Below, piece by piece: positions 2 to 17,425 of a stretch of 64,000 nucleotides of DNA (the stretch's first letter is position 1; each line of letters opens with the position of its first letter). The notes beneath the pieces were generated by a model. The model was not told the DNA's origin and ran no database searches. It worked only from the letters and a program-made list of their open reading frames with translations. Both the position numbers and the translations under genes were made by a program. The stretch covers positions 48,236 through 112,235 of the forward strand of contig NZ_CP040824.1 of NCBI RefSeq assembly GCF_005887635.2, written 5' to 3'. Source of the DNA: Paroceanicella profunda (GTDB lineage Bacteria > Pseudomonadota > Alphaproteobacteria > Rhodobacterales > Rhodobacteraceae).

Positions 2-1657
2 CGGGCCCGGCTGGCGCGCCACCTCGTCCAGCTGGACCGCTGGGCGGAGGTGAACCCCGGCGACTTCCGTGCCCGCGCCAGCCTGGTCCATGCCGAGAGC
101 GCCCGGATCTCCGGCTTCCGCGAGGAGGCGATGCGGCTCTACGACCGCGCGATCATGGACGCGCGCCGGCAGGACGCGCCCCAGGTGGAGGCACTGGCCG
201 CCGAACGCGCCGCGCAGTTCCACGCCTCCCAGGGACTGCCGGGGCTGGAGGCTGCCTGCCTGCGCGACGCGCGCGCCGCATGGGAGCGCTGGGGCGCCCT
301 CGGCAAGGTGTGGCGCATGGACGTGCAGCGGCCCGACCTCAGCCCGGACGCCGCGGAAACCGACAGCGCGCCGGTCGCCCTGCCGGGCACGGACATCGCC
401 GCCCTGCAGCGCGGCTCGCAGGCGGTGGCCGGGCCCGGCGGTTTCGCCGAGCTGGCGCCCACGCTGCTCGAACTGGTGCTCGAACATGCCGGCGCCTCGC
501 GCGCGCTGCTGTTCGTCGTCTCCGGCGCCAGCCTGCGCGTGGAGACCGAGGTGCAGGCCAGGCCCGACGGCGTGCGCACCCGGCGGATCGCCCCCGGCGA
601 CGCGCCGCCGCTGCCGTGGAACCTGGTGGAGGCCTGTGCCGCGGAGGCGAGGGTGATCCGCATCGACGACGCCCACACCCCCGGGCCCTTCGCCGCCGAC
701 CCCTACTGGAGCGCGGCCACGACCCGCGCGCTGCTGTGCCTGCCGCTGCTGCGCCGCGGGCGCACGGTGGGCGTGATCCTGCTGGAGAACGACCTCGCCG
801 CGCAGGCCTTCCCGCCGGCCCGGGTGGACCTGCTGCGCCTGCTCGCCTCGCAGGCCGCGGAGGTGATCGAGGTGGCGAGCCTGGAGGAGAAGGACGCCCT
901 GCTCAAGGAGGTCCACCACCGGGTGAAGAACAACCTGCAGCTCATCATGAGCCTGCTGAGCCTGCAGGCCGGGCGCATCGAGGACCCCGCGACGGCGATG
1001 CTCTTCGCCGATGCCCGGGACCGGGTGCGCTCCATGGCCTTCGTGCACGAGAGCCTGTACCGGCTGGGGAATTTCGCCAGCGCCCCGATGCGCCCGCAAC
1101 TGGAGGCGATCTGCGCCCAGCTCCTCCGCGCCTATGCGCCGCCCGACGGCACGGTCGACCTGCGCACGGACCTGGAGGACCTGCAGCTCGATCTCGACCG
1201 CGCGGTGCCCTGCGGGCTGATCGTGAACGAACTGGTCTCCAACGCGCTGAAGCACGCCTTCCCCGACGGGCGGCGCGGCCTCGTGCTGGTCATGCTGAAG
1301 CGGCGGGGCGCGGAGATCGCCATCACCGTGCGCGATGACGGCGCGGGGCTGGCACCGGAGGTCGACATCGCCGGGGCGCAGACGCTCGGGCTGCAACTGG
1401 TCTGCGATCTCACGGAGCAGCTGCGCGGCCGCATCGAGATCCGCCGTGGCCCCGGGGTGGCGGCGGAGCCCGCACCCGGCGGGCCCGGGGAGGACGGGCA
1501 GGGCCCCCGACCGGCTCTGCCCGCCGCCGGGGCCGTCCCGCCCCGGCCCGTGCCCCGTCCTGGCGCGCCCCCCCTTGCGGACCGGCTCCCGGGCGTGCCA
1601 CTTCGCAGCGGTACCGAGATTACCGTGACCTTTCACGCCGGAGAGCAGATGACATGA
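2..1657 (+). CDS. C-terminal part of a GAF/HisKA_2 sensor histidine kinase (5' end outside window)
   Basis: The reading frame is open from base 2, so the true start lies upstream; the GTG at 50 is only the first in-window start codon. The visible part begins with helical TPR-like sequence, then a GAF domain, then a HisKA_2 dimerisation helix with the motif EVHHRVKNNLQ (His pair near 289-290 counted from base 50), then an HATPase domain with the N-box NELVSNALKHAF. This order is known from the C-terminal ends of large multidomain kinases that start with a Ser/Thr-kinase and ATPase region, so such an N-terminus is inferred. A Pro/Gly/Ala-rich stretch of about 50 residues (about 1453-1608) splits the last HATPase strands, RIEIRRGPG and GTEITVTF. 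It overlaps the next gene by 4 bp (ATGA), pointing to co-expression. Confidence 0.85.
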   Translation, partial: RARLARHLVQLDRWAEVNPGDFRARASLVHAESARISGFREEAMRLYDRAIMDARRQDAPQVEALAAERAAQFHASQGLPGLEAACLRDARAAWERWGALGKVWRMDVQRPDLSPDAAETDSAPVALPGTDIAALQRGSQAVAGPGGFAELAPTLLELVLEHAGASRALLFVVSGASLRVETEVQARPDGVRTRRIAPGDAPPLPWNLVEACAAEARVIRIDDAHTPGPFAADPYWSAATTRALLCLPLLRRGRTVGVILLENDLAAQAFPPARVDLLRLLASQAAEVIEVASLEEKDALLKEVHHRVKNNLQLIMSLLSLQAGRIEDPATAMLFADARDRVRSMAFVHESLYRLGNFASAPMRPQLEAICAQLLRAYAPPDGTVDLRTDLEDLQLDLDRAVPCGLIVNELVSNALKHAFPDGRRGLVLVMLKRRGAEIAITVRDDGAGLAPEVDIAGAQTLGLQLVCDLTEQLRGRIEIRRGPGVAAEPAPGGPGEDGQGPRPALPAAGAVPPRPVPRPGAPPLADRLPGVPLRSGTEITVTFHAGEQMT

Positions 1658-3309
1658 CCAGCGCCCGCATCCTGATCGTGGAAGATGACCGCGTGGTGCG
1701 CCGGGACCTTCAGCAGCAGCTCTCCCGGCTCGGCCACCGGGTCGTCGGCGCCTCCGCCACGGGGGAGGAGGCGATCACCCTGGCGGCCGCCCATGCGCCG
1801 GACCTCGTGCTGATGGACATCCGGCTCGAGGGCCGGGTGGACGGTATCGAGGCCGCCCGGCAGATCCGCGATGCGCACCGGATCCCGATCATCTATCTCA
1901 CGGCCTACGCGGATGACGAAACCGTCCGCCGTGCCGCCGTCACCGAGCCGTTCGGCTATCTCCTCAAGCCCTTCGAGGAGCCGCAGATGCGCACCGTCAT
2001 CCAGATGGCGCTCTACAAGCGCGACGCGGAAGCGCGGCTGCGGCTGACCGAGCGCCGCTACGCCGCCACGCTGGCGGGCATCGGGGACGGGGTGATCTCC
2101 TGCGACGGCACGGGCCAGGTGGATTACATGAACCCGGTGGCAGAACGCCTCACCGGCTGGGTCGCCGCGGCCGCCGCCGGCCGGCCCATCGCCGAGGTGA
2201 TGCCGGTGCGCGACGCGGAAACCGGCGCCACGCTTGCCGGCCTCGCCTCCCTGGTCCTCGCCGGCTCCGCGCCGCCGGAGAGCCGTCCGCGCCCCGCTCC
2301 CGCCGGGCCCGGGCCGGCGCGGGGCGACGTTCCCCCGTTTCCGGCCGATCCCAGCCCGGCATACCTTCCCCCCGCGCCCGGCGCGGGCGCGCAGACGGGC
2401 TCCGGCGCAGCGGAGGGGGACAGGGCGCTCGAACGCAGTGTGCTGCTGCTGCCGCGCGAGGGCATGCCGGTGGCGATCGAGGAGCGCGGGGCCCCGCTGC
2501 TCGACGATCTCGGCCACCCCGCCGGGGCAGTGATCACCTTCACCGACCTCACCCAGCGCCGGCAGGTGGCCAACGCCCTGCGCCAGGCGAAGGCCGACCT
2601 CGCCCATATCTCGCGGGTCACGCTGATGGGGGAGCTGGCCGCCGCGGTGGCGCATGAGGTGAACCAGCCGCTGATGGCGATCGCGGCCAATGCCGGGGCC
2701 TGCCTGCGCTGGCTCTCCGACGACCGCCCGGCCATCGACAAGGCCCGTGTCGCCACCGAGCGCATCGTGCGTGACGCCGACCGGGCCGGCGAGGTGGTCC
2801 GCTCCATCCGCGCGCTGGCGCGGCGCACCCGCTCGCGGGCGGGCGACGTCGACCTCGGCGCCCTCGTGCGGGAGACGCTGACCCTCGTGCGGGCCGAGCT
2901 GCAGCGCGCCTCGGTGGCCACCGACCTCGCCGTCGCGCCCGGCCTGCCGGTGCTGCACGGTGACCGGGTGCAGCTTCAGCAGGTGTTCCTCAACCTCGTG
3001 GTCAACGCGATAGAGGCGATGGCCACGGTGGCCGACCGCCCGCGCGAGCTGCGCATCGAGCTGGACGCCCGCGCCGGGGAGGCGATCATCCGGGTGATCG
3101 ACAGCGGCACCGGCCTGCCGCCGGACGCGGTTCCGCAGATCTTCAACGCCTTCTTCACCACGAAGCCCGAGGGCACCGGCATGGGCCTGTCGATCAGCCG
3201 CTCCATCGTGGAGCTGCACGGCGGGCGGCTCTCGGGCTCGCCTCGCAGCCCGTTCGGGAGTATATTCGAGGTTGCGCTGCCGATCCGCCCGGGAGGCCCC
3301 GCCACATGA
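1654..3309 (+). CDS. Hybrid receiver-PAS-histidine kinase
   Basis: This 551-residue protein has an N-terminal receiver domain (about 1-125, phospho-acceptor Asp55 in LVLMDIRLEG), a PAS domain (about 130-310), a HisKA H-box AVAHEVNQPLMAIAANAG with His334, and a C-terminal HATPase with GTGMGLSISRSIVELHGG. It would autophosphorylate on His334 and probably pass phosphate to the FixJ-type regulator encoded next. The PAS domain is interrupted by about 55 Pro/Ala/Gly-rich residues (about 2262-2430). Family members normally run straight through to the block ending GAVITFTDLTQRR. No membrane segment is visible, so it is probably cytoplasmic. It overlaps the genes on both sides by 4 bp. The signal sensed is unknown. 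Confidence 0.9.
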   Translation: MTSARILIVEDDRVVRRDLQQQLSRLGHRVVGASATGEEAITLAAAHAPDLVLMDIRLEGRVDGIEAARQIRDAHRIPIIYLTAYADDETVRRAAVTEPFGYLLKPFEEPQMRTVIQMALYKRDAEARLRLTERRYAATLAGIGDGVISCDGTGQVDYMNPVAERLTGWVAAAAAGRPIAEVMPVRDAETGATLAGLASLVLAGSAPPESRPRPAPAGPGPARGDVPPFPADPSPAYLPPAPGAGAQTGSGAAEGDRALERSVLLLPREGMPVAIEERGAPLLDDLGHPAGAVITFTDLTQRRQVANALRQAKADLAHISRVTLMGELAAAVAHEVNQPLMAIAANAGACLRWLSDDRPAIDKARVATERIVRDADRAGEVVRSIRALARRTRSRAGDVDLGALVRETLTLVRAELQRASVATDLAVAPGLPVLHGDRVQLQQVFLNLVVNAIEAMATVADRPRELRIELDARAGEAIIRVIDSGTGLPPDAVPQIFNAFFTTKPEGTGMGLSISRSIVELHGGRLSGSPRSPFGSIFEVALPIRPGGPAT

Positions 3310-3938
3310 CAGCCGTTCTGACCTGGCCTGAGAGCACCGTCCTTCCCACCGTGGTGGTGATCGACGATGACGATTCCGTGCGCGAAGGGCTGGAGGCGCT
3401 GCTCGATTCCGTGGGGCTGGCCTGCGAGACCTTCGGTTCCGTGCAGGATTATCTCGCCGCCGGGCCGGAGGTGGAGCTGGGCTGCATGGTGCTCGACGTG
3501 CGCCTGCCCGGGCGCAGCGGCATCGATTTCCACGACTCGCTGGTGCGCGCGGGGGTGGACCTGCCGGTGATCTTCATCTCCGGGCATGCCGATGTGCCGA
3601 TGTCGGTGCGGGCGATGAAGGCCGGCGCCTGGGAGTTCCTCACCAAGCCGGTGCGCCACCAGGAACTGCTCGACGCGATCCACCAGGCCATCGAACACCA
3701 CCGCGCCCGGCGCCGTGGCCGCTCGCGCATGGCCAGCCTGCGCGCCCGGTTCGACAGCCTCACCCCGCGCGAGCGCGACGTGGCCGCCGGGGTGACGCGC
3801 GGCCTGCTCAACAAGCAGATCGCCGGGGAGCTGGGCCTGAGCGAGGCCACGGTGAAGCTGCACCGGGGCAACCTGATGCGCAAGATGGAGGCGGGGACGA
3901 TGATCGACCTCGTGCGCATGCTCGACCAGATCGCCTGA
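3306..3938 (+). CDS. FixJ/LuxR-family response regulator
   Basis: This 210-residue protein has an N-terminal receiver domain (Asp64 in MVLDVRLPGRSG, switch region FISGHADVPMSVRAMKAGA, conserved Lys in FLTKPV) and a C-terminal LuxR-type helix-turn-helix (about 145-205, with LTPRERDV and KQIAGELGLSEATVKLHR). That is the FixJ/NarL layout. It is the last gene of a three-gene unit, and the 4-bp overlap with the hybrid kinase suggests the kinase phosphorylates it. Its target genes cannot be read from the sequence; the YcaO gene begins about 320 bp downstream on the same strand. Confidence 0.93.
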   Translation: MTAVLTWPESTVLPTVVVIDDDDSVREGLEALLDSVGLACETFGSVQDYLAAGPEVELGCMVLDVRLPGRSGIDFHDSLVRAGVDLPVIFISGHADVPMSVRAMKAGAWEFLTKPVRHQELLDAIHQAIEHHRARRRGRSRMASLRARFDSLTPRERDVAAGVTRGLLNKQIAGELGLSEATVKLHRGNLMRKMEAGTMIDLVRMLDQIA

Positions 3939-4256: not shown

Positions 4257-5339
4257 GTGACCCGATCTATGCCAGCAGGATCGACCTATGACGCGGCGCT
4301 CGACGCGCTCGCGGCAGCCTGTGACGAGGTGTTCCTCCTGCCCAGTGCCAGCCGCGGCGTCGTGCTCGTGGGGGCCACGCTGCGCGACCCGTCCCGCTTC
4401 GGCGCCGGGCCGGAACCGCTGCACGCCGGCGGCCGGGGGCGCAGCCCGGAGGACGCCCGGCGCGGCTGCCTGGAGGAGCTGGCCGAACGCCTCATCCTGC
4501 GCGCCGCCGGGCCGGCCGCCTGGGCGCCGGCGGAGACCCGGAGAACGGCTGACGACAGGATATCGCACAGCGGCGCGGACGGGCAGGGCACCGCCGCAAC
4601 CGCAACCGCAATGCCCTGTCCGATCGCGCCAGGCGGGCTGGGCCGGGCCAGCGCCTGCGCCGCGGACCCGGACACCGCCCTGCAGCGGGCCCGGCTGGAA
4701 CTGGCCGAGCGTCGGGCCGTCGCGGCCTGGTGGTCCGGCGCGCGCTGCGCCCCCGCGCCGGCCGGCCCGGCCCAGGCTGCCCTCGCGGAGGTGTTCCCGC
4801 CCGGGCCCTTCGGCCGCCGCCGCTGGCTGCTTGACCTGTCTCCGGGCGCGGACGGCACGGTGATCGCCGCGCTCTCGACCACGTCGGGCGGGCGCGGGCT
4901 GGTGGGGGGCTTCGCCGCCGCGCACACGCCCGAGGCCGCCGCCCGCCGCGCCAGCGAGGAACTGTGCCAGATGGAAGCCGCCGCCGCGATGGCCTGGCAG
5001 CGCCGCGGCCCGGAGGGCGCCGGGGCGCTCGCTCCCGCCGACCGCCTGTGGCTCGCCCGGCTGGAGGCGCCCTGCCCGGACTGGCTGGCGCCGGATGACA
5101 CCGGCACGGCGCTGCCCGCGGAGCCGGCGTCATCCGGCGTCGTCACCCGCCATCTCGGCCTGCCGGGCTGGCCCTTCCACGTGGTGGCGCTCAGCGGGGC
5201 AGGGGGGCCGCCGGGCCCCGGCCTCGACGACACGGGAGCGGCGATCGCGGCCCGGGCGCCGGTGACGCGGGCTGTGCATGCCCCCGCCGGGGAGGCCGGG
5301 GCAGCGACCCCGCTCGGGACGTCTCGGGGGAGGCGGTGA
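4257..5339 (+). CDS. YcaO-like domain protein
   Basis: This 360-residue protein shows the three helical blocks typical of YcaO proteins: SPEDARRGCLEELAERLIL, then ALQRARLELAERRAVAAWW, then TPEAAARRASEELCQME. In the family these Glu/Arg/Gln-rich helices bind ATP and Mg, and members activate peptide backbone amides (azoline, thioamide or amidine formation) or assist RimO. No TfuA, E1-like or dehydrogenase partner is adjacent, so this is a standalone type. A GTG at 4257 behind GAGGA (4246-4250) is preferred over ATG 4170, which lies in the promoter-like region. Low-complexity sequence lies between blocks one and two and at the C-terminus. The neighbouring BTAD regulator and the convergent small protein/peroxidase pair suggest a modification pathway, but the substrate is unproven. 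Confidence 0.7.
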   Translation: MTRSMPAGSTYDAALDALAAACDEVFLLPSASRGVVLVGATLRDPSRFGAGPEPLHAGGRGRSPEDARRGCLEELAERLILRAAGPAAWAPAETRRTADDRISHSGADGQGTAATATAMPCPIAPGGLGRASACAADPDTALQRARLELAERRAVAAWWSGARCAPAPAGPAQAALAEVFPPGPFGRRRWLLDLSPGADGTVIAALSTTSGGRGLVGGFAAAHTPEAAARRASEELCQMEAAAAMAWQRRGPEGAGALAPADRLWLARLEAPCPDWLAPDDTGTALPAEPASSGVVTRHLGLPGWPFHVVALSGAGGPPGPGLDDTGAAIAARAPVTRAVHAPAGEAGAATPLGTSRGRR

Positions 5340-5551
5340 CCGCGCGCGGGGCATTCCGGACGGCGGATCGCGCCCGGTGGCGGGCGGGAGGCCGTGCCGG
5401 AAGTCCGGGAGCGGATCACCCCGGAACGCGGGACGTCGCCACCGGGGGCGAGGTGGCGCGGGCTGCGGCATGGGGGCGAATCGCATAGCGGGTCTGGAAA
5501 CCCTGCGGCGATGAAGGCAGAGTGCGAAAGGGATCAGGGGCTAACGAGACA

Positions 5552-7516
5552 ATGTGGGAATTGAGAGGGATCGGCCGCGCCGCGCTGCTGGACGGCACCG
5601 GAGCTCCGGTGACGTTGCGCAGCGAGCGCAGCCTCGCGCTGATCGCCTATCTGGCGCTCGGGCCGGCCGCGTCGATGACGCGTGAGCGGGCCTGCGGGCT
5701 GTTCTGGGGTGACCGGCCGGAGGCCGCCGCCCGCTCCTCGCTGCGCCAGCTCCTGCACCGGCTGAAGGCCGACCTTGCCGACGCGCCGGACCTTCTGGAC
5801 ATCGGCCGCGACAGCATCGCGCTGAAGGAGCCGCTGCGCACCGACCTGCACCGGCTCTGCGACGAGATCGCCGCCGGCGCCCCGCCGCAGACCCTGCCGG
5901 AGGCCGAGGCGCTGCTGCAGGGGCTCGAATCGCTCTCCGAGGAGTTCGACGCCTGGCTCGGCATCGTGCGCCAGCGCTGGGTGGAGCGGCTGCTGGGGCT
6001 GCTCTCCGCCGCGCTGAAGGTGCCCGGCCCGGTGCAGATCCACGCGGCGCGCGGCCTGTTCTCCGCCGATCCCACCCATGACGGCGCCGCGCGCATCCTG
6101 ATCCAGACCGCGCTGGACGAGGCCGCCCTGGCCGAGGCGCTGCGCGTCTACGAGCGCCACTGGGACGCGCTGGACGCGGAATGGGACCAGGAACCGGCCG
6201 CGGACCTGCAGGACCTCGTGGTGCGCGCGAAAAGCGGCGAGGTGATCTCCCGCGTCGCCCCCGCGCCGGCCCGCGCCATGCCCCGGCAGGCCCCGGCTCC
6301 GGCCGGCTTCCCGCCCGGACCGCCGGTGGACCCGGCCGCGCCGCCGATCATCGAGATCGCGCCCTTCCTGCCCGCCGGCCCCTGGACCGGCCCGTCGGAC
6401 CTGCCGAACGGCTTCCGCCTCGAACTCATCGCCGCGCTGGTGCGCTTTCGCGAATGGGCCGTGGTCGAGCAGAGCGTGGGACTGGACCCGGACTACCGCA
6501 TCTCCGGCATCTTCATGGACGTGGGCGGGCGCGTGCGCCTCACCCTCACCACCATCGAATGCCGCACCGGCGGCTATCTCTACTCCGACGCGCTGGAACT
6601 GGAGACGGACGCCTGGGCCGACATCGTCACCCGCACCATCCGCCGGGTGGCGATTTCGCTGAACATGCATGTCTCGCGCCGCCGGCTCACCGCCTGGGAC
6701 GTGGCCTCGCCGGAAAGCGCCGCGCCGGGGCGGGGCCAGGCCTATGACCTGTGGCTGCGCGGCAACGACCTGCGCAAGCGCTGGAGCGCCAGCAGCTTCG
6801 ACGAGGCGGAGGTCGCCTTCCGCCAGCTCATCAAGCTGGAGCCGGGCTACGCGGCGGCCTACAGTTCGCTCGCCGGGCTTCTGAACACGCGTCATCTCGC
6901 CGAGCCGGGGATCATGCGCAGCCCGGCCCGGGCGGCGGCCGCGCGGGAATTCGCCATGCGCGCCGTGGCGCTGGACCCGCTGGACGGGCGCAACCAGCAC
7001 GCGCTGGCCTGGTCGCACGCGCTGTGCGAGTCCCACGAACTCGCCGCCTTCCACTTCGACCTCTCGATGGAGCTGAACCCCTCCAGCCCCCGCACCCTGG
7101 TGCCGCTCGCGCATGGTTATTCCTTCCTCGGCCAGCATGACCGGGCCCTCGGCCTCGCGGCGCAGGCCATGGCGATCCATCCGCAGATGAACGGCGTGCA
7201 CTGGGGCTACCTCATGTGCATCCGCTACTTTGCGGGAGATACCACCGGCGCCCTGCAGGCCGGCGAGGCGGCGGGAGACGCGGTGTTCGACTTCCTCGCC
7301 TGGCACGCCGCCGCACTGGCGATGGACGGCGCCACCGTCGCGGCGCGCGCGAAGATGGAGCAGTTCGTCGCAGCCGCGGTGGACCGCTGGGCCGGGGACG
7401 GACCGGCGGACTGGGAGGCGATCGGCCGCTGGCTGATGCATTCCTTCCCGATCCGCCGCGCCGAGGACCTCGCCCGCCTGCGCACCGGCCTCGCCGCGGC
7501 GGGCCTGCCGGTCTGA
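5552..7516 (+). CDS. BTAD/SARP-like transcriptional regulator with TPR region
   Basis: The protein (654 residues from ATG 5552) begins with a winged-helix and bacterial transcriptional activation domain of the AfsR/SARP type (LRSERSLALIAYLALGP, RSSLRQLLHRLKADL). A Pro/Ala-rich linker (about 240-280) follows, then a middle domain (about 285-380) resembling the effector segment of CadC/adenylate-cyclase-like TPR regulators, and then TPR-like repeats to the C-terminus. A GTG at 5522 is possible, but the fold starts naturally at MWELRGIGRA. It is on the same strand as the YcaO gene, 212 bp downstream. SARP-type regulators often control specialised-metabolite genes, so it is a candidate regulator of the YcaO/peroxidase locus; this is inference. 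Confidence 0.8.
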   Translation: MWELRGIGRAALLDGTGAPVTLRSERSLALIAYLALGPAASMTRERACGLFWGDRPEAAARSSLRQLLHRLKADLADAPDLLDIGRDSIALKEPLRTDLHRLCDEIAAGAPPQTLPEAEALLQGLESLSEEFDAWLGIVRQRWVERLLGLLSAALKVPGPVQIHAARGLFSADPTHDGAARILIQTALDEAALAEALRVYERHWDALDAEWDQEPAADLQDLVVRAKSGEVISRVAPAPARAMPRQAPAPAGFPPGPPVDPAAPPIIEIAPFLPAGPWTGPSDLPNGFRLELIAALVRFREWAVVEQSVGLDPDYRISGIFMDVGGRVRLTLTTIECRTGGYLYSDALELETDAWADIVTRTIRRVAISLNMHVSRRRLTAWDVASPESAAPGRGQAYDLWLRGNDLRKRWSASSFDEAEVAFRQLIKLEPGYAAAYSSLAGLLNTRHLAEPGIMRSPARAAAAREFAMRAVALDPLDGRNQHALAWSHALCESHELAAFHFDLSMELNPSSPRTLVPLAHGYSFLGQHDRALGLAAQAMAIHPQMNGVHWGYLMCIRYFAGDTTGALQAGEAAGDAVFDFLAWHAAALAMDGATVAARAKMEQFVAAAVDRWAGDGPADWEAIGRWLMHSFPIRRAEDLARLRTGLAAAGLPV

Positions 7517-7720
7517 TCCCGCCGCGACGGCGTCCCTCCCGGCCCCCGCCCCGAAACGGCCCGCTCTCGCGCGCACAGACCCGCCGCGGCGCGCGGGACG
7601 GGATCGCCCCGACATCCCCTCGCGCCGGACGGAGGCCCGGCCGACACCGGGCGGCAAGGCGCATCGCCCCTCGGCGCCGGCCAAGTGCTCGGCATGGACC
7701 GGGCGCGCCGCCCTTCCGGA

Positions 7721-8131
7721 TCAGTCGCAGTGCTGCAGCACGTAGTCCCCGAGGCGGAAATCGTAGAAGGACATGCGCTGTTCCTTCGTCTTGGCCGGCG
7801 GCATCAGGAAGGTCATGAACTCCTGGTCCAGCGTGTAGCCGGGGTCATTCTCCACCCGGTCGAGAATGTCCTCCAGCTGCTCCTTGGCCGGCACGACGAT
7901 GTGGAACTCGTCCTCGGAGTTCTGGTGCACGATCACCTTGATCGGGCAGTGCTTGCGCTCCAGCTCGTTGCCGTCCTTGTCCTGCAGGGTGATGCCGGCC
8001 TTGTACATGTCCTTCAGCGCCCCCTTGGAATCCCCCACGGGCACCTTGTCCTTCAGCACCCATTTGCGCACGAGGGCGCCCATGGCGCGCAGGACAACCG
8101 GATCGTTCATGTTGAACACATGCGAAGGCAT
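7721..8131 (-). CDS. Small protein with NHLP-leader-like segment (unassigned)
   Basis: This 136-residue protein is less GC-biased in amino-acid use than its neighbours. It lies 15 bp downstream of the heme peroxidase gene on the same strand, with GGGAG before its ATG, so the two are almost certainly co-transcribed. Residues about 30-85 resemble by eye the nitrile-hydratase-like leader (NHLP) pattern of some RiPP precursors: an ALKDMYKAGI-type helix, then IKVIVHQNSEDEFHIVVPA, close to the usual 'V.VV..T.D..H.VLPA'. The part after VVPA is acidic and aromatic, has few Cys/Ser/Thr and ends in HCD, with no GG cleavage site, so a classical thiazole-type core is not evident. It may instead be a peroxidase partner or maturation factor. 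Confidence in the gene is high, in the function low. Confidence 0.8.
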   Translation of the reverse strand: MPSHVFNMNDPVVLRAMGALVRKWVLKDKVPVGDSKGALKDMYKAGITLQDKDGNELERKHCPIKVIVHQNSEDEFHIVVPAKEQLEDILDRVENDPGYTLDQEFMTFLMPPAKTKEQRMSFYDFRLGDYVLQHCD

Positions 8132-8146
8132 TGGAGATCTCCCGGA

Positions 8147-9649
8147 TCAGTGTGTTTGCGTGCGAAGGAAGGAAAGCAGGCCGGTCATGCGCCGCGGCGC
8201 CTCCTGGCCGAGAATGTCGCGCCACAGCGCCCGGCCGCGGGCGGTTTCCGCCTCGGACTCGATGAGCCCGGCGCCGAACACCTCGCCCACGATGGCGCTG
8301 GCCACCGGCCCGAGATGGTGCCCGCCGGCGTGCTGGGCCTCCAGCAGCACGTAGAGCGCCAGGGGCATGCGCGCGGCCAGCGCGGCGCGGTCCGCGGCGT
8401 CGAGCCCCGGCAGCCGCTCGGCGAGCAGCGCCTCGCGCGCCGCGGGCTCCAGCAGGGCCACCCCCGGCATGCGCGCGGCCACGAAGGCGTCGGTGTCGTC
8501 CATCCCGTCCGCGGCGCAGCGCACCATGTCGCGGTAGGCCAGCCCCCGGCCCACCCCGTCATCCCCGGGGAAGAACCCCTCGTCATGCAGGGTGAGGTTG
8601 ATGCCCGGCTTGATGAGATGGCTGAAGTTGCGCAACCGGCCGTCCGGGGTGCGCGGGGCGGTGTCGTCGAAGAAGAACCGGTCCCACTCCAGAGACCAGA
8701 TCCGCGCCGGCGCGGAGGGCTCCGCGGCCAGCGAGATCAGCCGCGACAGCGAGGCCGGCTTGTTCTCCGCGAACTGCGCGGAGAGCGCGTAATGCCCCCG
8801 CGCCATCGTGTGCCCCACCCGGTAGGCGGCCGAGGCGAAGGCGCGCGACACCGGCGCGTCCACCGAGCCGGAGCCGAGCAGCCGCAGCCCGTCGAAACTG
8901 GCGCGCGCGCAGGCGTCCACCACCCGGGCATGGGTGGCGTCGTCCAGCAGGCGGGCGAGGAAATCATGCAGGATGATGTCGCGGTAGGCCGCCAGCACGA
9001 TGGTGCGTGCCGTGGCCAGAACCCGGGCGCCGTCATAGCTGCCGGCGGGCTCCCGCGCCTCCACCCGGTCCACCACCGCGTTGTGCACGCAGGCGAAGAG
9101 CACCGTCACCTGCGAGATCAGGTAATGCAGGTTGTTGCGCGGATCGGCGGTGACGGCCGTCATCTCCGGCAGTTGCGCCACCAGGCGCGGCAACACGCAG
9201 AACTCCGGCCCCTGAGGGGCGGTGCTGGTCCATGCGGCGCGCGAGAGGAACGAGCGCTCGGTGTCGGGCATCGGCGCCAGCGCCAGCCGGGTGCGCGGCA
9301 TCCGGCCCGCGGGCTGGTAGAGCTCGGGGCGGATGTCCGGCCCCGGGCCGTAGAGCGAGCCGAGGTCGAGCGCCGAATTGGCGTGCTCGGGCGAGATCGG
9401 CGCCGAGGGCGCCTGGCCGGGGTCTCCCAGCCGCGGCCGCGTCACCCCGCTGAACACGAGGTCATGCGCGGCGAACTGCGCGAGATAGGTGTAGCCCGAG
9501 GGGATGCGCGGATTGTCGTCCGGGGCGTCGCGCCGCGCGTCCTTCATCGCCTCGGCCAGCCGGGCGAAGAGCGGCCGGCGGTCCTGCGTGGCGCTGCTCT
9601 CCAGCGCCCGTGCGGGCTGCGGCCCGTATAGTCGACACCCGATGGTCAT
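8147..9649 (-). CDS. Animal-type heme peroxidase family protein
   Basis: The 500-residue protein begins MTIGCRLYGPQPARAL at 9649, behind a strong GGGGGG ribosome-binding sequence; the frame stays open further upstream without another good start. Family features include YTYLAQFAAHDLVFSG (distal-His-type AQFAAHD), NSALDLGSLYGPG, RNNLHYLISQVTVLFACVHN and RVGHTMARGHYAL with the likely proximal histidine. Bacterial members of this heme-dependent peroxidase-cyclooxygenase superfamily oxidise halides, phenols or fatty acids. No signal peptide is seen, which is unusual for a secreted peroxidase. The gene is followed at 15 bp by the 136-residue NHLP-like protein and faces the YcaO/BTAD genes. The substrate is unknown. 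Confidence 0.85.
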   Translation of the reverse strand: MTIGCRLYGPQPARALESSATQDRRPLFARLAEAMKDARRDAPDDNPRIPSGYTYLAQFAAHDLVFSGVTRPRLGDPGQAPSAPISPEHANSALDLGSLYGPGPDIRPELYQPAGRMPRTRLALAPMPDTERSFLSRAAWTSTAPQGPEFCVLPRLVAQLPEMTAVTADPRNNLHYLISQVTVLFACVHNAVVDRVEAREPAGSYDGARVLATARTIVLAAYRDIILHDFLARLLDDATHARVVDACARASFDGLRLLGSGSVDAPVSRAFASAAYRVGHTMARGHYALSAQFAENKPASLSRLISLAAEPSAPARIWSLEWDRFFFDDTAPRTPDGRLRNFSHLIKPGINLTLHDEGFFPGDDGVGRGLAYRDMVRCAADGMDDTDAFVAARMPGVALLEPAAREALLAERLPGLDAADRAALAARMPLALYVLLEAQHAGGHHLGPVASAIVGEVFGAGLIESEAETARGRALWRDILGQEAPRRMTGLLSFLRTQTH

Positions 9650-11177: not shown

Positions 11178-13898
11178 CTAGTTCAGATCATGCTCCGCGA
11201 TCAGGGCCGCGAGGGCGGAGGAGAAGCCGGCGTTGTAATCCGTCGCCACCTCGTTCGCGACATAGTCCGTCCGCAGGTCGGCGTAGGCGCCGTTCACGTC
11301 CGGCCCGCCGACCAGCGCGCCGTAGAGCGTGTGCGCGTTGGCGGCGGGGTCGGAGTCGCTGTCGGTGCCGGAGGCGCCGCGGTGGTGCGGGTTGAGCGGG
11401 TAGTCATCGCCGAAGCCGACGACATAGCTCTGCCCGTCCGGATTGTCTCCCAGCATGTAGTCGAGCTGGTCGGCGGCGAAATCCACCACCGCGTCGATGC
11501 GCGCCTGCGAGCCACCCCGCGCCTCGGTGAGGTCGGCGTATTCCATCGCCAGGAAGGCGGTGTTCGCCGCGTAGCGGTTCGAGCCCCAGGCGTCGAGCCA
11601 GGCGAGGCCACCGTTCGTGTCCGTGCCCGGGGTGCGGGGCAGGCTGTTCATCCAGTAGTCGATATGCGCGCCGAGATCGGCGTAGGCGCTGCTGCCGCCC
11701 GGGGCCGCGGCCAGCAGCGCGGCGGTGCCCATGGACTTGTTGTCCCAGGACAGCCCCCAGGTGGTACCGCTGGCGGTGTACCAGGCCTGCGCCTTGTCCA
11801 GATAGGCGGCCTCGCCGGTGGCCCGGTTCAGCCAGGCCGCGCTCCAGGCCAGTTCGTCCTGATAGCCGCTCCAGGAATTGTAGAAATCCGCGGCGTCGGG
11901 CACGGCGGCGGTGTAGCTGCCCTGATAGGCCTCGGAGAAGGCGAAGAGCTGCTTCGCGGTGTCCAGAAGCTCATCCGCATAGGCGGTGCGGCCGGCCTCG
12001 CGGAACACGATGGAGCTCGCGGCCAGCGCGGCGGCCGTCTCCGCCGTCACCTCCGTGCCGGGGGTCCGGGCCGTGACCGCATAGGCGGGGCGCGCCATGG
12101 TCATGTCCTCGGGGGCGCCCCAGTAGGCGTGATCGGCGGCGCCGTTGCCGACCTGGGCGTAGAACACGTCATCGGCCAGGGTCTCGGTGCCCTTGTCGTC
12201 ATAGGCGCGCAGGAAGTAATCGGTCACCCATGCGAGATGGGTGAGGATGTCGTCATAGGTGCCGCTCGCCTTGTAGCCCTCGGCGTAGTCCGACGCGCCC
12301 CAGGCCAGGAGCGTGGCGGAGGAGGCCATCGGCAGGCCGAACTTCACGTGATCGCCCGCGTCATACCAGCCGCCGGTGAGGTCGCGCCCGACGTCCGCGC
12401 CATCCGACAGCGCGCTGTCCCCGCGCCAGTCGACGGGGAAATCCTCCGGCAGATCCCCCGAATACTGCGCGTAGTAGAACTGCATCGACAGCCCAAGCGC
12501 CTCGCCGTAATCGGCGGCGGCGAAGGGTGAGGGCGTGCCGGGCACATGGCCCGTGCCGGGGCGGGGGTTCGGCCCGGGGCCGGACCCGGCCTCGGTGTAG
12601 ATGTCGAAATAGGGCGCGTCCGGCGCGCTGCCGGTGGCCACGAAGCCGATGGTGACGGACTGTCCCTGCGCCAGCCCCGTGGTCCAGTCCCGGCCGATGA
12701 GCGAGGGGTCGCCGTCGGCCTCCGTCCGGGCCACCGCGCCCCACACGCGGTCGATCACGAAATCCGCGTCCTCGAAGGTCAGCCGCCAGCTCTCCAGCGG
12801 CCGGCCGGTGTCGTTCGTCACCGTGAGCTCGCCTGCAAAACCGTGCGTCCAGTGGGTGGAGACGGAGACGGAGACCTCCGGCAGGGCCGCGGCCCCATCG
12901 CCGTCGGTGATGGTGAGCCGCGCGTCGGGGCTGACGAGCGCGGCGCCCTGCGCGGAGAGCAGGCGGACATGCAGGCTCTCCGTCGGCTCCGCCACCCGGT
13001 CATCGCGCAGGGGGATGTCGAGCAGGGCGCGGGTGGTGCCGGCGGGAAGGGTGACGGTGCCATGGCTCTGGCCCGCCCGGTAATCTGCCGCGTCTGCGCT
13101 GCCGCCGGGCACCACGGCCCAGCGGACGGTAACGTCCTCGGCGCGCGCCTCGCTGAGAACCACGCGCATGTGGGCGGTGCCGTCCTCCTCCGCCGCGGTG
13201 GCGCGGGCCAGGCGCAGGCCGGGCAGGTCGTCGTCGATCAGGGTGAGGAGGGCGCTGGCGGTGCCGATGCGCGCACCCGTGGCGGAGGTGAGGGTGATGC
13301 GCGCGGTCTCCGTGCCTTCCTCCAGCGCATCGTCGAGGATGCGGACAGGGAAGCTCGTCGCGGTCTGGCCGGCGGCGATGGTGAGGCTGCGCGCCCCCGG
13401 CGCCGCCCGGTCCGCCGCGCCGGCGCTGCCGCCGTCAAAGGCCCATTTCACCGTGACGTCCATGTCGCTGGCGTGGGAGAGGGTGACGCGCATCCGCGCG
13501 GTGCCGTCGCCCTCGGTGGCGGTGACGGGGTGCAGGCTCACCACCGGCAGCGGGTCCGGCACGGGCTCGGGCGGGCTTACCGGAACACCGTTCACCCGGG
13601 TTACCGCGAGGTCCTGCCGCGCGGCGTCGGCCTGGAAGCCGAAGCGCGCGGTCTCCCCGGAGGCGAGCGCGCCGTTCCAGCCCTCGTCGGCGAGGGTGTA
13701 GAGCGGGCCGCTGCGCGAGACGATCCGCGCGCCCCAGATGCTGGTGATCCCGGCGTGCAGTTCCAGCACGAGGGTCCAGTGGTCGAGCCTGCGATGGGCC
13801 TCGAACGTGGCCTGCACCGCCATGCCCGTGTCCCACGTGTCGACGTCTGCGAAGGTGACGACGCCGGGCGCGCCGCCGGAAATGACTGTATCGGCCAA
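11178..13898 (-). CDS. Multidomain GH9 glycoside hydrolase (endoglucanase type) with CBM2-like and Calx-beta domains
   Basis: The protein (906 residues) starts at TTG 13898, 8 nt after AGAGAGG; the nearby ATG at 13903 is out of frame. Visible domains are an N-terminal CBM2-like module (about 1-95), two Calx-beta repeats (about 115-330, with acidic LIDDDLPGL-type calcium turns), a second CBM2-like module (about 338-436), a Gly/Pro linker and a GH9 catalytic domain (about 456-906). GH9 signatures are present: GGWYDAGDHVKFG with the catalytic Asp near 511, the GFGDDYPLNPHHRGAS block, and NEVATDYNAGF near 882 with the acid Glu. GH9 enzymes cut beta-1,4-glucans. No Sec signal is visible, so secretion may use type I export or the enzyme may be misannotated at its start. 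It appears monocistronic. Confidence 0.92.
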   Translation of the reverse strand: MADTVISGGAPGVVTFADVDTWDTGMAVQATFEAHRRLDHWTLVLELHAGITSIWGARIVSRSGPLYTLADEGWNGALASGETARFGFQADAARQDLAVTRVNGVPVSPPEPVPDPLPVVSLHPVTATEGDGTARMRVTLSHASDMDVTVKWAFDGGSAGAADRAAPGARSLTIAAGQTATSFPVRILDDALEEGTETARITLTSATGARIGTASALLTLIDDDLPGLRLARATAAEEDGTAHMRVVLSEARAEDVTVRWAVVPGGSADAADYRAGQSHGTVTLPAGTTRALLDIPLRDDRVAEPTESLHVRLLSAQGAALVSPDARLTITDGDGAAALPEVSVSVSTHWTHGFAGELTVTNDTGRPLESWRLTFEDADFVIDRVWGAVARTEADGDPSLIGRDWTTGLAQGQSVTIGFVATGSAPDAPYFDIYTEAGSGPGPNPRPGTGHVPGTPSPFAAADYGEALGLSMQFYYAQYSGDLPEDFPVDWRGDSALSDGADVGRDLTGGWYDAGDHVKFGLPMASSATLLAWGASDYAEGYKASGTYDDILTHLAWVTDYFLRAYDDKGTETLADDVFYAQVGNGAADHAYWGAPEDMTMARPAYAVTARTPGTEVTAETAAALAASSIVFREAGRTAYADELLDTAKQLFAFSEAYQGSYTAAVPDAADFYNSWSGYQDELAWSAAWLNRATGEAAYLDKAQAWYTASGTTWGLSWDNKSMGTAALLAAAPGGSSAYADLGAHIDYWMNSLPRTPGTDTNGGLAWLDAWGSNRYAANTAFLAMEYADLTEARGGSQARIDAVVDFAADQLDYMLGDNPDGQSYVVGFGDDYPLNPHHRGASGTDSDSDPAANAHTLYGALVGGPDVNGAYADLRTDYVANEVATDYNAGFSSALAALIAEHDLN

Positions 13899-14770: not shown

Positions 14771-17353
14771 TCAGGCCGGCCGGCGCGGCTCGGAGAAGCG
14801 GAGCAGGCGCAGGGCGTTGAGGGTTACCAGCACCGTGGCGCCGGTGTCCGCCAGAATGGCGGGCCACAGGCCGGTCACCCCCAGCAGCGTGGTCACCAGG
14901 AACACGCCCTTCAGCCCCAGCGCGATGGCGACATTCTGGTGGATGTTCGCCATCGTGGCCCGGGCGAGGCGGATCTGGATGACCACGTCGCCCACCCGGT
15001 CGCGCAGCAGGGCGCCGTCCGCGGTCTCCAGCGCCACGTCGGTGCCCGAGCCCATGGCGAGCCCCACCTGCGCGGTGGCCAGGGCGGGGGCGTCGTTGAT
15101 GCCGTCGCCCACCATCATCACTCGGGCGCCCGGCGTGGCGGCGGCGAGGTCGCGGATCGCGGTGACCTTGTCTTGCGGCAGGAGGCCGGCGCGGGCGGCG
15201 AGGCCGATGCGCTGCGCGATGGCCTGCGCGGTGCGGGGGGTGTCGCCGCTCAGCATCACCGGGGTGATGCCCATGCGCCGCAGGTCGGCGACGGCGGTGG
15301 CGGCGTCGGCGCGGGGCTCGTCACGCAGGGCGATCAGCCCGGCGAGGCGGCTCTGCGTGAACACCGCGACCACGGTGGCGCCCGTCTCCTCCGTGGCGGA
15401 GATCCAGGCGCGGGTGGCGGGGTCGACGAGGCCGTGCTGCGCGGCGAGGTCGGGGGACCCCACGGTCCAGTCCTGCCCGTCGATGGTGGCGCGCGCACCC
15501 CGGCCGGGCAGGGCGGCGGCGCCGGTGGCGGGAGGGAGGACGCAGCCTTCCGCCTCGGCGCGCGCCAGAATGGCCCGGCCGAGCGGGTGGCTCGCGCCGG
15601 CCTCCACCGCGGCGGCGGTGGCGAGCAGCCCGGTTTCCTCCTGCGCGATGCCGCGCAGTGCGACGATGCGCGGCCGGCCCTCGGTGAGGGTACCGGTCTT
15701 GTCGAAGGCCACGCAAGTGACCCCCGCCGTGGCCTCCAGCACCGCGCCGCCCTTCAACAGCAGCCCGTGCCGCGCGCCGGTGGAGAGCGCCGAGGCGATG
15801 GAGGCGGGCACCGAGATCACCAGCGCGCAGGGGCAGCCGATCAGCAACAGCGCGAGGCCGCGGTAGACCCATGTCTCCCAGGGCGCCCCGGCCAGCAGCG
15901 GCGGCAGCACCGCGACCAGCAGCGCCGCGCCCACGACGGCGGGCATGTAGACGCGGCTGAACCGGTCGATGAACCGCTCGGTGGGGGCGCGGGCGCTGCC
16001 TGCCTCCTCCACCAGCCGCAGGATGCGCGAGATCGTGTTGTCCTCGAAGGACGTGCTCACCCGGATGCGCAGCTCCGCGCCGGTGTTGATCGCCCCGGCG
16101 AAGACCGTGTCTCCGGGGGAGACGGGGCGCGGCAGGCTTTCGCCGGTGACCGGGCTCTCGTCCACCGCGGAGATGCCGGTGGCCACCGTGCCGTCGGCGG
16201 GGATCCGGTCTCCGGGGCGGACCTGAACGAGATGGCCGATGGCGAGGCTCTCCGCCGGCAGGTCTCGGATCGTGCTGCCGACGACGACACGCGCGGTCCT
16301 GGGCACCAGCGCGGCGAGCGCGCGGATGCCGCTGCGCGCCCGCCCGGCGGCGAGACCTTCCAGCGTCTCCCCGAGTGCGAAGAGGAACACCACCAGCGCC
16401 GCCTCCTGCGCGGCGCCGATGACCAGGGCACCGGTGGCCGCGATGGTCATCAGCATCTCGATGGTGAAGGGCATCCGGGCCGCCGCCATCTGCCCGGCGC
16501 GCCGGGCCACGGGAGCGAGCCCGATCAGCGTGGCGAGCATGAAACCCGCCTGTGCCACCCTGCCGCCCACGGCGAGATCCACCGCCCAGGCCAGCGCCAG
16601 CAGCGCCCCGGTGCCCAGCAGCAGCCGCGCCTTCGGCGTGCTGTGCCTGGCCGGATCGGCGTCCGGGCCTGCGGGCGCGGCCGATGCGCCGGGCGCTCCG
16701 GCGGGGCTGTCCCCTGCTGTTGCTGCGGGAGCGGGCGGAGGCATGGCGAGGCCGGTCTCCGCAGGGGCTGTGCCGCGGGTGTCCGCCGGGGCACCGGCGT
16801 GGCCGCGCGCATGCGCGCCCGGCTGTCGGCCTGGGTGGGCAAGGGCGGGACCCTGCGCGACCGTGCCGGCGGGTGTCTCCCCGGCGGCATGGGGATCATG
16901 GTGCGCAGGCCCGGCCGGCTGGCCGGTTGCAGGGGCGGGGGCGGGGCGCTGCGCAGGCGCGGGCTTCCGGCCCGCGTCAGGCGGAACCGAAGGGCCGGGC
17001 CCGGAGGCATGGCCCTGCGTGGCGACGGGGGGTGCGGGCTGCGGGTCCGGCAGGGCGGCGGCGTGGTCCGGGCCGGAGGGGGCGGCATCCGCCGGCATCA
17101 CGAAGCCGCGCGCCGGCTTCTGCGGGGCCGCGCCGCGCGGGCCGATGCCGTAGCCGAGACGGCGCACGGCGCGTTCCACGCCTGCGCGCGGGGTGAGAGT
17201 TTCGTCGAGGGTGAGGCTCAGGCGCTCGGCCATCAGCGCCACGTCCACGGCGCCGACGCCCGGCAGCGCCGCCACCGCCCCGCGCACCTTCGCCGCGCAG
17301 GCCCCGCAATCCATCCCCGTCACCCGCCATTCGTGCTGGCTTTCCCGTGTCAT
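14771..17353 (-). CDS. Heavy-metal-translocating P1B-type ATPase (Zn/Cd/Pb exporter)
   Basis: The protein (860 residues) starts at ATG 17353, 8 nt after AGGAGG; earlier in-frame codons lie over the promoter. It has an N-terminal heavy-metal-associated domain (GMDCGACAAKV, about 8-68), a 170-residue Pro/Ala/Gly-rich linker with nine His (about 71-240), membrane segments, the transmembrane metal motif CPC near 506-508, the phosphorylation motif DKTGTLTEG near 550 and the hinge MVGDGINDAPALA. The CPC motif and the divergent CadR-like regulator fit export of Zn, Cd or Pb. The linker is much longer than in typical ZntA/CadA proteins and may add metal binding. Transcription probably starts from the MerR-type promoter at 17395-17425. 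Confidence 0.93.
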   Translation of the reverse strand: MTRESQHEWRVTGMDCGACAAKVRGAVAALPGVGAVDVALMAERLSLTLDETLTPRAGVERAVRRLGYGIGPRGAAPQKPARGFVMPADAAPSGPDHAAALPDPQPAPPVATQGHASGPGPSVPPDAGRKPAPAQRPAPAPATGQPAGPAHHDPHAAGETPAGTVAQGPALAHPGRQPGAHARGHAGAPADTRGTAPAETGLAMPPPAPAATAGDSPAGAPGASAAPAGPDADPARHSTPKARLLLGTGALLALAWAVDLAVGGRVAQAGFMLATLIGLAPVARRAGQMAAARMPFTIEMLMTIAATGALVIGAAQEAALVVFLFALGETLEGLAAGRARSGIRALAALVPRTARVVVGSTIRDLPAESLAIGHLVQVRPGDRIPADGTVATGISAVDESPVTGESLPRPVSPGDTVFAGAINTGAELRIRVSTSFEDNTISRILRLVEEAGSARAPTERFIDRFSRVYMPAVVGAALLVAVLPPLLAGAPWETWVYRGLALLLIGCPCALVISVPASIASALSTGARHGLLLKGGAVLEATAGVTCVAFDKTGTLTEGRPRIVALRGIAQEETGLLATAAAVEAGASHPLGRAILARAEAEGCVLPPATGAAALPGRGARATIDGQDWTVGSPDLAAQHGLVDPATRAWISATEETGATVVAVFTQSRLAGLIALRDEPRADAATAVADLRRMGITPVMLSGDTPRTAQAIAQRIGLAARAGLLPQDKVTAIRDLAAATPGARVMMVGDGINDAPALATAQVGLAMGSGTDVALETADGALLRDRVGDVVIQIRLARATMANIHQNVAIALGLKGVFLVTTLLGVTGLWPAILADTGATVLVTLNALRLLRFSEPRRPA

Positions 17354-17394
17354 CCCTGGGCCTCCTGTGTCGCTGTTCCGGCTCGACTCACGCA

Positions 17395-17425
17395 CAGATG
17401 GGAGCTACAGCCACTGTAGGTTCAA
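17395..17425 (-). promoter_or_regulatory. MerR-type promoter/operator with 19-bp spacer
   Basis: On the minus strand a -35 TTGAAC (17420-17425) and a -10 CATCTG (17395-17400) are separated by exactly 19 bp (17401-17419). The spacer holds the perfect dyad CTACAG-TGG-CTGTAG (17405-17419). Over-long spacers with a central dyad are the hallmark of promoters untwisted by MerR-family activators, and the sequence resembles known CadR/PbrR/ZntR operators. It drives the metal ATPase gene and lies next to the divergent regulator gene. Confidence 0.85.

Follow-up and report, generated by a model that had tools for sequence, protein, structure and literature searches.

Within a 64,000-nucleotide stretch of the Paroceanicella profunda genome (contig NZ_CP040824.1, positions 48,236 to 112,235; hereafter, at its full length, the window) lies a locus that is one copy of a recurrent four-gene module, carried by many Alphaproteobacteria and consisting of a YcaO enzyme, a BTAD-type regulator, an animal-type haem peroxidase and a small protein with a Cys at a fixed C-terminal position. 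Named carriers include Phaeobacter inhibens, Paracoccus denitrificans, Mesorhizobium huakuii and Bradyrhizobium. The module is real, recurrent and undescribed in the open-access literature that was searched, i.e. no description of the four-gene combination was found there (most subscription papers lie outside that search), which agrees with an earlier note on this DNA, made from the letters alone, whose author knew of no system with these four parts. The four open reading frames listed in that note were all recovered, as was the gap of 15 bases (8132-8146) that separates the stop of the peroxidase gene from the ATG of the small-protein gene. The features are as follows, C-terminal positions being counted back from the last residue (-1):

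4257..5339, plus strand: standalone YcaO-family ATP-dependent enzyme, 360 residues counted from an ATG at 4257, upstream of which the frame is already open
5522..7516, plus strand: SARP-like regulator (resembling the Streptomyces antibiotic regulatory proteins) that combines BTAD and TPR parts with a weak match to a winged helix; BTAD 18.4 bits
7721..8131, minus strand: small protein of 136 residues, proposed substrate (leader-like domain plus C-terminal motif), with relatives beside YcaO and peroxidase genes elsewhere
7724..7756, minus strand: C-terminal motif RLGDYVLQHCD, proposed core, Cys at -2
8147..9649, minus strand: animal-type haem peroxidase of 500 residues (PF03098, 55.7 bits)

That this four-gene grouping recurs far more often than expected by chance was confirmed from several starting points. 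The window genome holds a single YcaO, and among 394 genomes of the family matches to the window YcaO were found in 7 and matches to the window peroxidase in 50. The YcaO domain (PF02624) was present in 40 of 295 genomes of the window's family, at 43 places, and all 43 neighbourhoods were examined (most of them 19-20 kb, some shortened by contig ends): peroxidase and BTAD matches occurred together near the YcaO in 17 of them and not in the other 26. The profiles used had been built from eight loci; the 17 include five of these (L048, L049, L050, L055 and the window's own L056), leaving 12 that are independent. In seven of the 26 non-module neighbourhoods a BTAD match without peroxidase was seen, so that BTAD alone is not diagnostic; these matches score 69-272 bits, whereas the BTAD profile built here matched all 17 module loci with at least 371 bits. 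A small protein ending in Cys-X, that is with exactly one residue after the Cys, lies beside the genes in all 17 module neighbourhoods, four of these proteins having been recovered via the tail profile, that of L055 via its position and 12 via inspection for a terminal Cys. From the side of the small protein, a search with the tail motif across 84,980 species yielded 11 loci, all of which are confirmed relatives (Bradyrhizobium 4, Gemmobacter 3, Rhodobacteraceae 2 and other Alphaproteobacteria 2; L058 and L065 are not independent of earlier matches in genomes G155 and G259), and within 8 kb of these loci a YcaO was found at 11/11, a peroxidase at 10/11 and BTAD at 10/11, L059 being the exception. 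The earlier note had pointed to co-occurrence across alphaproteobacteria as a check on its proposal, and with 17 of 43 YcaO neighbourhoods and every tail-motif locus linked in this way that co-occurrence is strong.

A control that started from the peroxidase gives a much sparser picture. Thirty loci were available, 26 of which were neither the window's nor known to bear a tail; in the 20 of these that were taken, as stretches of 5-19 kb, a YcaO was present in 3 and BTAD in 6 (four of them without YcaO), and of the three YcaO-bearing control loci L085 and L086 contain complete modules with diverged tails, the third being L070, described below. On plasmids, where nine records with a related peroxidase were opened, the module was found in three and in none of the other six. 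Two such records have other surroundings: in a Spirosoma plasmid (L196:8749-12148) the related haem peroxidase is followed by a YegP-family protein and a ThiF adenylyltransferase, and in a Rhizobium sophoriradicis plasmid (L200:8788-18849) it lies near Dyp-type peroxidase, C25 peptidase, ferritin-like and radical SAM proteins. The carriage of the module on plasmids, together with its patchy distribution (the 7 of 394 family genomes mentioned above), would fit an anti-phage or toxin-like defence module, but none of the four window proteins matches any PADLOC model at E-values up to 0.01 and we regard this explanation as very improbable.

With respect to further partners, all open frames of at least 60 residues were clustered over 15 loci. 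The resulting clusters cover BTAD in 14 loci, the peroxidase/tail proteins in 13 and the YcaO in 8, with a separate YcaO cluster in three Gemmobacter loci; a cluster spanning 11 loci seems to consist mostly of frames read on the reverse strand of these genes. None of the other clusters extends beyond three loci (many represent the Gemmobacter trio, a few link distant loci), i.e. no fifth gene family occurred in more than three of the 15 loci compared. Judged by this clustering there appears to be no fifth gene general to the module, and a fifth gene specific to a subset of loci may exist.

The small protein itself is highly diverged. Neither Pfam nor NCBIfam contains a match to the 136-residue protein at E-values up to 10, and in direct searches it recovered only itself (one match among 13 candidates, one among 61 genomes). 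A sensitive scan of the peroxidase and YcaO loci yielded two weak matches, one directly downstream of a peroxidase (L014, E 0.009) and one at the end of a peroxidase's own frame (L023, E 0.35), both of which end in R-V-G-D-Y-T-[LI]-x-x-C-[RK]. An alignment of these two with the window protein gave matches in 6 of the 394 family genomes and retrieved 67 database proteins out of 777 candidates, the window's included. None of the 67 has a precomputed Pfam domain, and the Cys is found at -2 in 62 of them and at -3 in three, while one has Ser in its place and one a longer C-terminus. Most of the longer database proteins (P0004-P0023) also carry a second, N-terminal stretch, Y[AT][LM]DC, that resembles the C-terminal GDYTLxYC.

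In total 30 small proteins of 120-248 residues were assembled, some of them trimmed from longer frames, and their last 13 positions were tabulated. At a median pairwise identity of 16% they share the tail [VLIF]-[GA]-x-[YIF]-x4-C-x: position -9 is Gly or Ala and -10 is Val, Leu, Ile or Phe in 30/30, -7 is Tyr in 25 (Ile in four, Phe in one), and the Cys stands at -2 in 30/30, followed by exactly one residue, where it has to be held against the reading proposed below that 13 of the 30 tails (those of 12 loci found via YcaO and that of L199) were accepted partly for this terminal Cys; the other tail positions played no part in picking those 13. Because 12 of the small proteins had been picked partly by their Cys, the background frequency was measured: 15 of 454 open frames outside the module blocks have a Cys at -2. 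In Phaeobacter, moreover, the annotated gene that immediately follows the peroxidase, chosen without regard to the motif, ends in MCD. An AlphaFold model of the window protein places the front of the motif in a helix (residues 116-132) and Cys 135 in the looser end, with a predicted local distance difference test score (pLDDT) of about 62. A Cys held at a constant distance from the carboxylate suggests recognition of the C-terminus by the enzymes.

Both enzymes keep their catalytic motifs, as judged from the alignments. The window YcaO matches PF02624 with 47.7 bits (cut-off 25.7), and the residues E74, E77, E148, R152 and E240 (window numbering) are invariant in the 14 aligned YcaOs (alignment A4). 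The A4 profile aligns to TruD (E 3.1e-26) and LynD (E 4.3e-25), with E74, E77, E148 and R152 opposite Glu or Arg residues of TruD; opposite E240 TruD has a Gly. In the case of the peroxidase, the window protein exceeds the PF03098 cut-off of 25, and some orthologues score below it (16.7 bits in L046, 23.3 in L061). The A5 peroxidase profile aligns to lactoperoxidase (E 4.5e-11) and myeloperoxidase (E 7.2e-10), and the module peroxidases share with these enzymes the haem-pocket motifs Gln-x3-His-Asp and Arg-x2-His (Q58, H62, D63, R277 and H280), which are invariant in the 13 sequences of A5. They differ from them in being linked to a peptide module and at a further position: mammalian peroxidases have Arg-Glu-His-Asn, the Arg of which is the distal Arg, whereas the window protein has Cys-Val-His-Asn and that Arg is not conserved in A5. 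The regulator had been called SARP/BTAD-type in the earlier note, and this assignment holds through its orthologues: the window copy stays below the BTAD cut-off of 22.1 bits, the orthologues in L049 (31.6 bits) and L061 (39.2 bits) pass it, and that of Phaeobacter is annotated as 'BTAD domain-containing putative transcriptional regulator'. The winged-helix domain Trans_reg_C is weakly matched in all three loci (window 12.3, L049 19.5, L061 23.4 bits; cut-off 26.2).

The module YcaOs form, as far as the tree goes, a lineage separate from other YcaOs. The tree comprises 52 sequences, namely 27 module YcaOs (those of the loci L052 and L053, discussed below, included) and 25 others, all of the latter from the window's family (the sub-threshold YcaO place L192 was omitted). 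A single branch parts the 27 from the 25, with support 95/88 and presence in 92% of 200 bootstrap trees; the module label changes once on the tree, as compared with a mean of 17.6 after shuffling, and none of 500 shuffles was as low. The tree program flags long branches, that of the window YcaO among them. In Paracoccus denitrificans a second, weaker YcaO match (51 bits; L199:13734-15296, minus strand) adjoins the module. Both this separation and the tail bear on an explanation in which the four genes would be linked stress or redox genes, the YcaO acting on some other protein and the small protein merely binding the peroxidase. The ordinary ribosomal protein uL16, with a thioamide related to a YcaO (the subject of PMC13063428), offers a precedent, but a Cys-X end in 30/30 small proteins that are otherwise so diverged, and YcaOs that stand apart from the other sampled ones, speak against it, and we consider it improbable.

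The order of the genes is variable. In the window-type order, the YcaO and BTAD genes converge on the small protein and the peroxidase, whereas in the one-strand type the YcaO, peroxidase and small-protein genes adjoin in one direction with the BTAD gene opposed. The latter order was seen in L046, L055, Paracoccus denitrificans and plasmid pP78_a of Phaeobacter inhibens (L198), where the module genes overlap by a few bases. The opposite-strand arrangement, which the earlier note had listed as a weak point, thus applies to some copies, that of the window included, and not to L046, L055 and Phaeobacter inhibens. A plasmid of Mesorhizobium huakuii has the peroxidase, the small protein (ending RLGDYVMSRCK), a BTAD match in opposite orientation and the YcaO, of which the two middle genes are annotated as hypothetical, the first as peroxidase family and the last as YcaO-like; in both annotated plasmid copies, i.e. 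this one and that of Phaeobacter, the module genes go under separate or hypothetical names. The small protein runs in the opposite direction to the YcaO-peroxidase pair in L086 and L179, and in L050/L058 and L057 peroxidase and small protein lie in one open frame. The continuous frame of L057 has a G-rich stretch ahead of an internal ATG, so that fusion and internal start are both possible.

We propose that the module is fairly probably a system like those of the ribosomally synthesized and post-translationally modified peptides (RiPPs), with the small protein as the substrate and its penultimate Cys as the site of modification. The N-terminal part of the small protein would serve as a recognition (leader-like) domain and the C-terminal [VLIF]-[GA]-x-[YIF]-x4-C-x as the modified core. 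The YcaO would act first, spending ATP on the backbone amide beside the penultimate Cys, most likely to give a thiazoline and less likely a thioamide. The haem peroxidase, together with the small protein (with which it shares a frame in some genomes), would then oxidize the Cys-derived group and so replace the flavin mononucleotide (FMN) dehydrogenase of classical azole pathways, and the BTAD regulator would turn the module on. Since no fifth family was seen in more than three of the 15 loci, the product may remain intracellular, or the general machinery of the cell may trim and export it. The conservation of the core suggests a fixed function, such as a cofactor, a redox or metal-binding peptide or a signal, rather than a hypervariable antibiotic. 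One specific form of this, which we put forward tentatively, is a peptide-derived redox cofactor of a new class, YcaO and peroxidase jointly turning the penultimate Cys of the carrier into a new sulfur heterocycle or crosslink. The earlier note had likewise combined the genes into a single RiPP-like locus, in which the 136-residue protein could be the substrate of the YcaO or a leader-like carrier and the peroxidase a tailoring enzyme; the conserved linkage agrees with such a unit, and modification by the YcaO remains inferential.

Several observations weigh against the RiPP-like proposal. A PxPxP C-terminus, a hallmark of YcaOs from classical azol(in)e RiPP systems (thiazole/oxazole-modified microcins, TOMMs), is found in none of the last 40 residues of the 14 aligned YcaOs, and a Pfam scan of the 11 window proteins between 50 and 17395 yielded neither a C protein nor an FMN dehydrogenase (the neighbours in the other loci were only partly profile-scanned). 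As neither a PxPxP end nor a C protein was seen, azoline formation is no more than a guess, and the core, with a single conserved Cys and few Ser or Thr, is unlike typical azoline substrates. Outside the module, too, BTAD matches are found close to peroxidases or YcaOs, and the module is at places incomplete: in L070 a peroxidase and a YcaO lie at a contig end, where no tail or BTAD was found; L059 keeps YcaO and tail with only the end of a peroxidase and no BTAD match; and two loci have a YcaO, BTAD and a tail-like Cys-X protein (L052:13011-13538, ending LGDYTVRQCL, and L053:12372-12986, ending LAGYSCAQCT) with no peroxidase match in 20 kb. In L047 a peroxidase match has a tail-like protein next to it (L047:10463-10963, plus strand, ending VADYCILNCA), and the 20 kb of sequence contain neither YcaO nor BTAD; the genome in question (G342) has YcaO and BTAD on another contig (L051). 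The small protein, finally, has no match to the profile of the nitrile-hydratase-like leader peptides (NHLP, TIGR03793) or of nitrile hydratase alpha, in NCBIfam and Pfam at E-values up to 10. As a separate observation, the neighbours of L052 and L053 include an RTX-repeat protein and a murein-endopeptidase-like protein, and in a second genome of the window's genus (G001) no match to the window YcaO or peroxidase was found.

The same exceptions bear on a rather unlikely, though more serious, alternative, in which the small protein would serve the peroxidase as a subunit or an activator, and the tail group installed by the YcaO would work in the active site of the peroxidase, no peptide being released. 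Such peroxidase maturation would, by analogy, resemble the YcaO thioamidation of methyl-coenzyme M reductase rather than a RiPP pathway. The adjacency or shared frame of small protein and peroxidase, the L047 tail beside a peroxidase without linked YcaO, a core that is conserved instead of hypervariable, and the lack of a fifth family in more than three of the 15 loci, hence of any sign of a dedicated protease or exporter, would all suit it. L052 and L053, in which YcaO and tail-like protein occur with no peroxidase match within 20 kb, and L086 and L179, in which the small protein lies on the strand opposite to the YcaO-peroxidase pair, fit it less well.

The NHLP-like character that the earlier note had suggested for the 136-residue protein was not borne out by the profile match. 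Nine other module or module-like small proteins have no NHLP match either, and similarity to nitrile hydratase alpha is seen, weakly, in profile-profile comparison. In hhalign, against a profile of 20 nitrile hydratase alpha sequences, the similarity is weak (E 3.5e-4, probability 37%), with a score of 29.9 as compared with at most 26.2 in 150 column shuffles and 10.4 and 9.0 in reversed controls. In a profile search of the PDB, nitrile hydratase alpha entries (E 0.56-1.4) come behind ORC6 (0.0028) and mitochondrial uL4 (0.0054), both of which we take as chance matches, and the AlphaFold model of the window small protein has no fold match, nitrile hydratase included. We regard the relationship as weak and unproven. 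The earlier note had held that its proposal would fall if NHLP similarity and co-occurrence of the YcaO with the 136-residue family were both absent: the former is indeed absent and the latter is strong. Outside the module, an NHLP-like open frame ending in Cys-Cys (L054:7971-8240, plus strand) lies just upstream of a YcaO and matches TIGR03793 with E 0.0017 and 18.2 bits (cut-off 50.9) and NHase_alpha, below cut-off, with E 0.002.

By gene content, then, the module looks like a RiPP system, although it departs from the classical azoline RiPPs in two respects (C protein and PxPxP) and from NHLP systems in the profile comparison. It shares with RiPPs in general a small-protein gene that is conserved together with the adjacent gene for a modifying enzyme, and with the classical TOMMs (C and D proteins) a YcaO, i.e. 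D protein, with its ATP-binding motifs. RiPPs made by a standalone YcaO, such as bottromycin and trifolitoxin, have a small precursor gene nearby, and trifolitoxin has a Cys near its C-terminus. The companions in the module differ from those in bottromycin and trifolitoxin systems, being an animal-type haem peroxidase and a BTAD regulator, and its small proteins are about 120-248 residues long with the Cys exactly at -2; TfuA had no match in the Pfam scan of the 11 window proteins, to which the search for it was confined. The likeness lies in a YcaO that lacks the partner C protein, as described for both compounds in PMC4603692. According to the same source, NHLP precursors resemble nitrile hydratase alpha and have hypervariable cores (PMC4603692); the weak profile-profile similarity would be the likeness to them, and the missing profile match and the conserved core the difference. 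The thioamidation of McrA and uL16, in which the YcaO works on a protein backbone and not on a short peptide, is a possible parallel, from which the module differs in linking its YcaO to a dedicated small protein and a peroxidase.

Many bacteria have animal-type haem peroxidases, most of which lack a known role, and a module that joins one to a YcaO and a protein with a fixed C-terminal Cys gives one peroxidase lineage a testable job; with Phaeobacter inhibens and Paracoccus denitrificans among the named carriers, the chemistry is directly testable. The module accounts for 17 of the 43 YcaO places in the 295 family genomes, yet the databases leave its genes unconnected. If the redox-cofactor possibility were true, this would to our knowledge be the first pathway with an animal-type haem peroxidase as a dedicated RiPP maturase, one whose substrate shares its reading frame in some species.

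As to the surroundings of the module in the window, the region upstream (50-3938, plus strand) encodes a HisKA_2/GAF kinase, a response-regulator/PAS/histidine-kinase hybrid and a LuxR-type response regulator. On its other side lie, both on the minus strand, a GH9 cellulase with CBM2 and Calx-beta domains next to the module (11178-13898) and a P-type ATPase with a heavy-metal-associated (HMA) domain (14771-17395).

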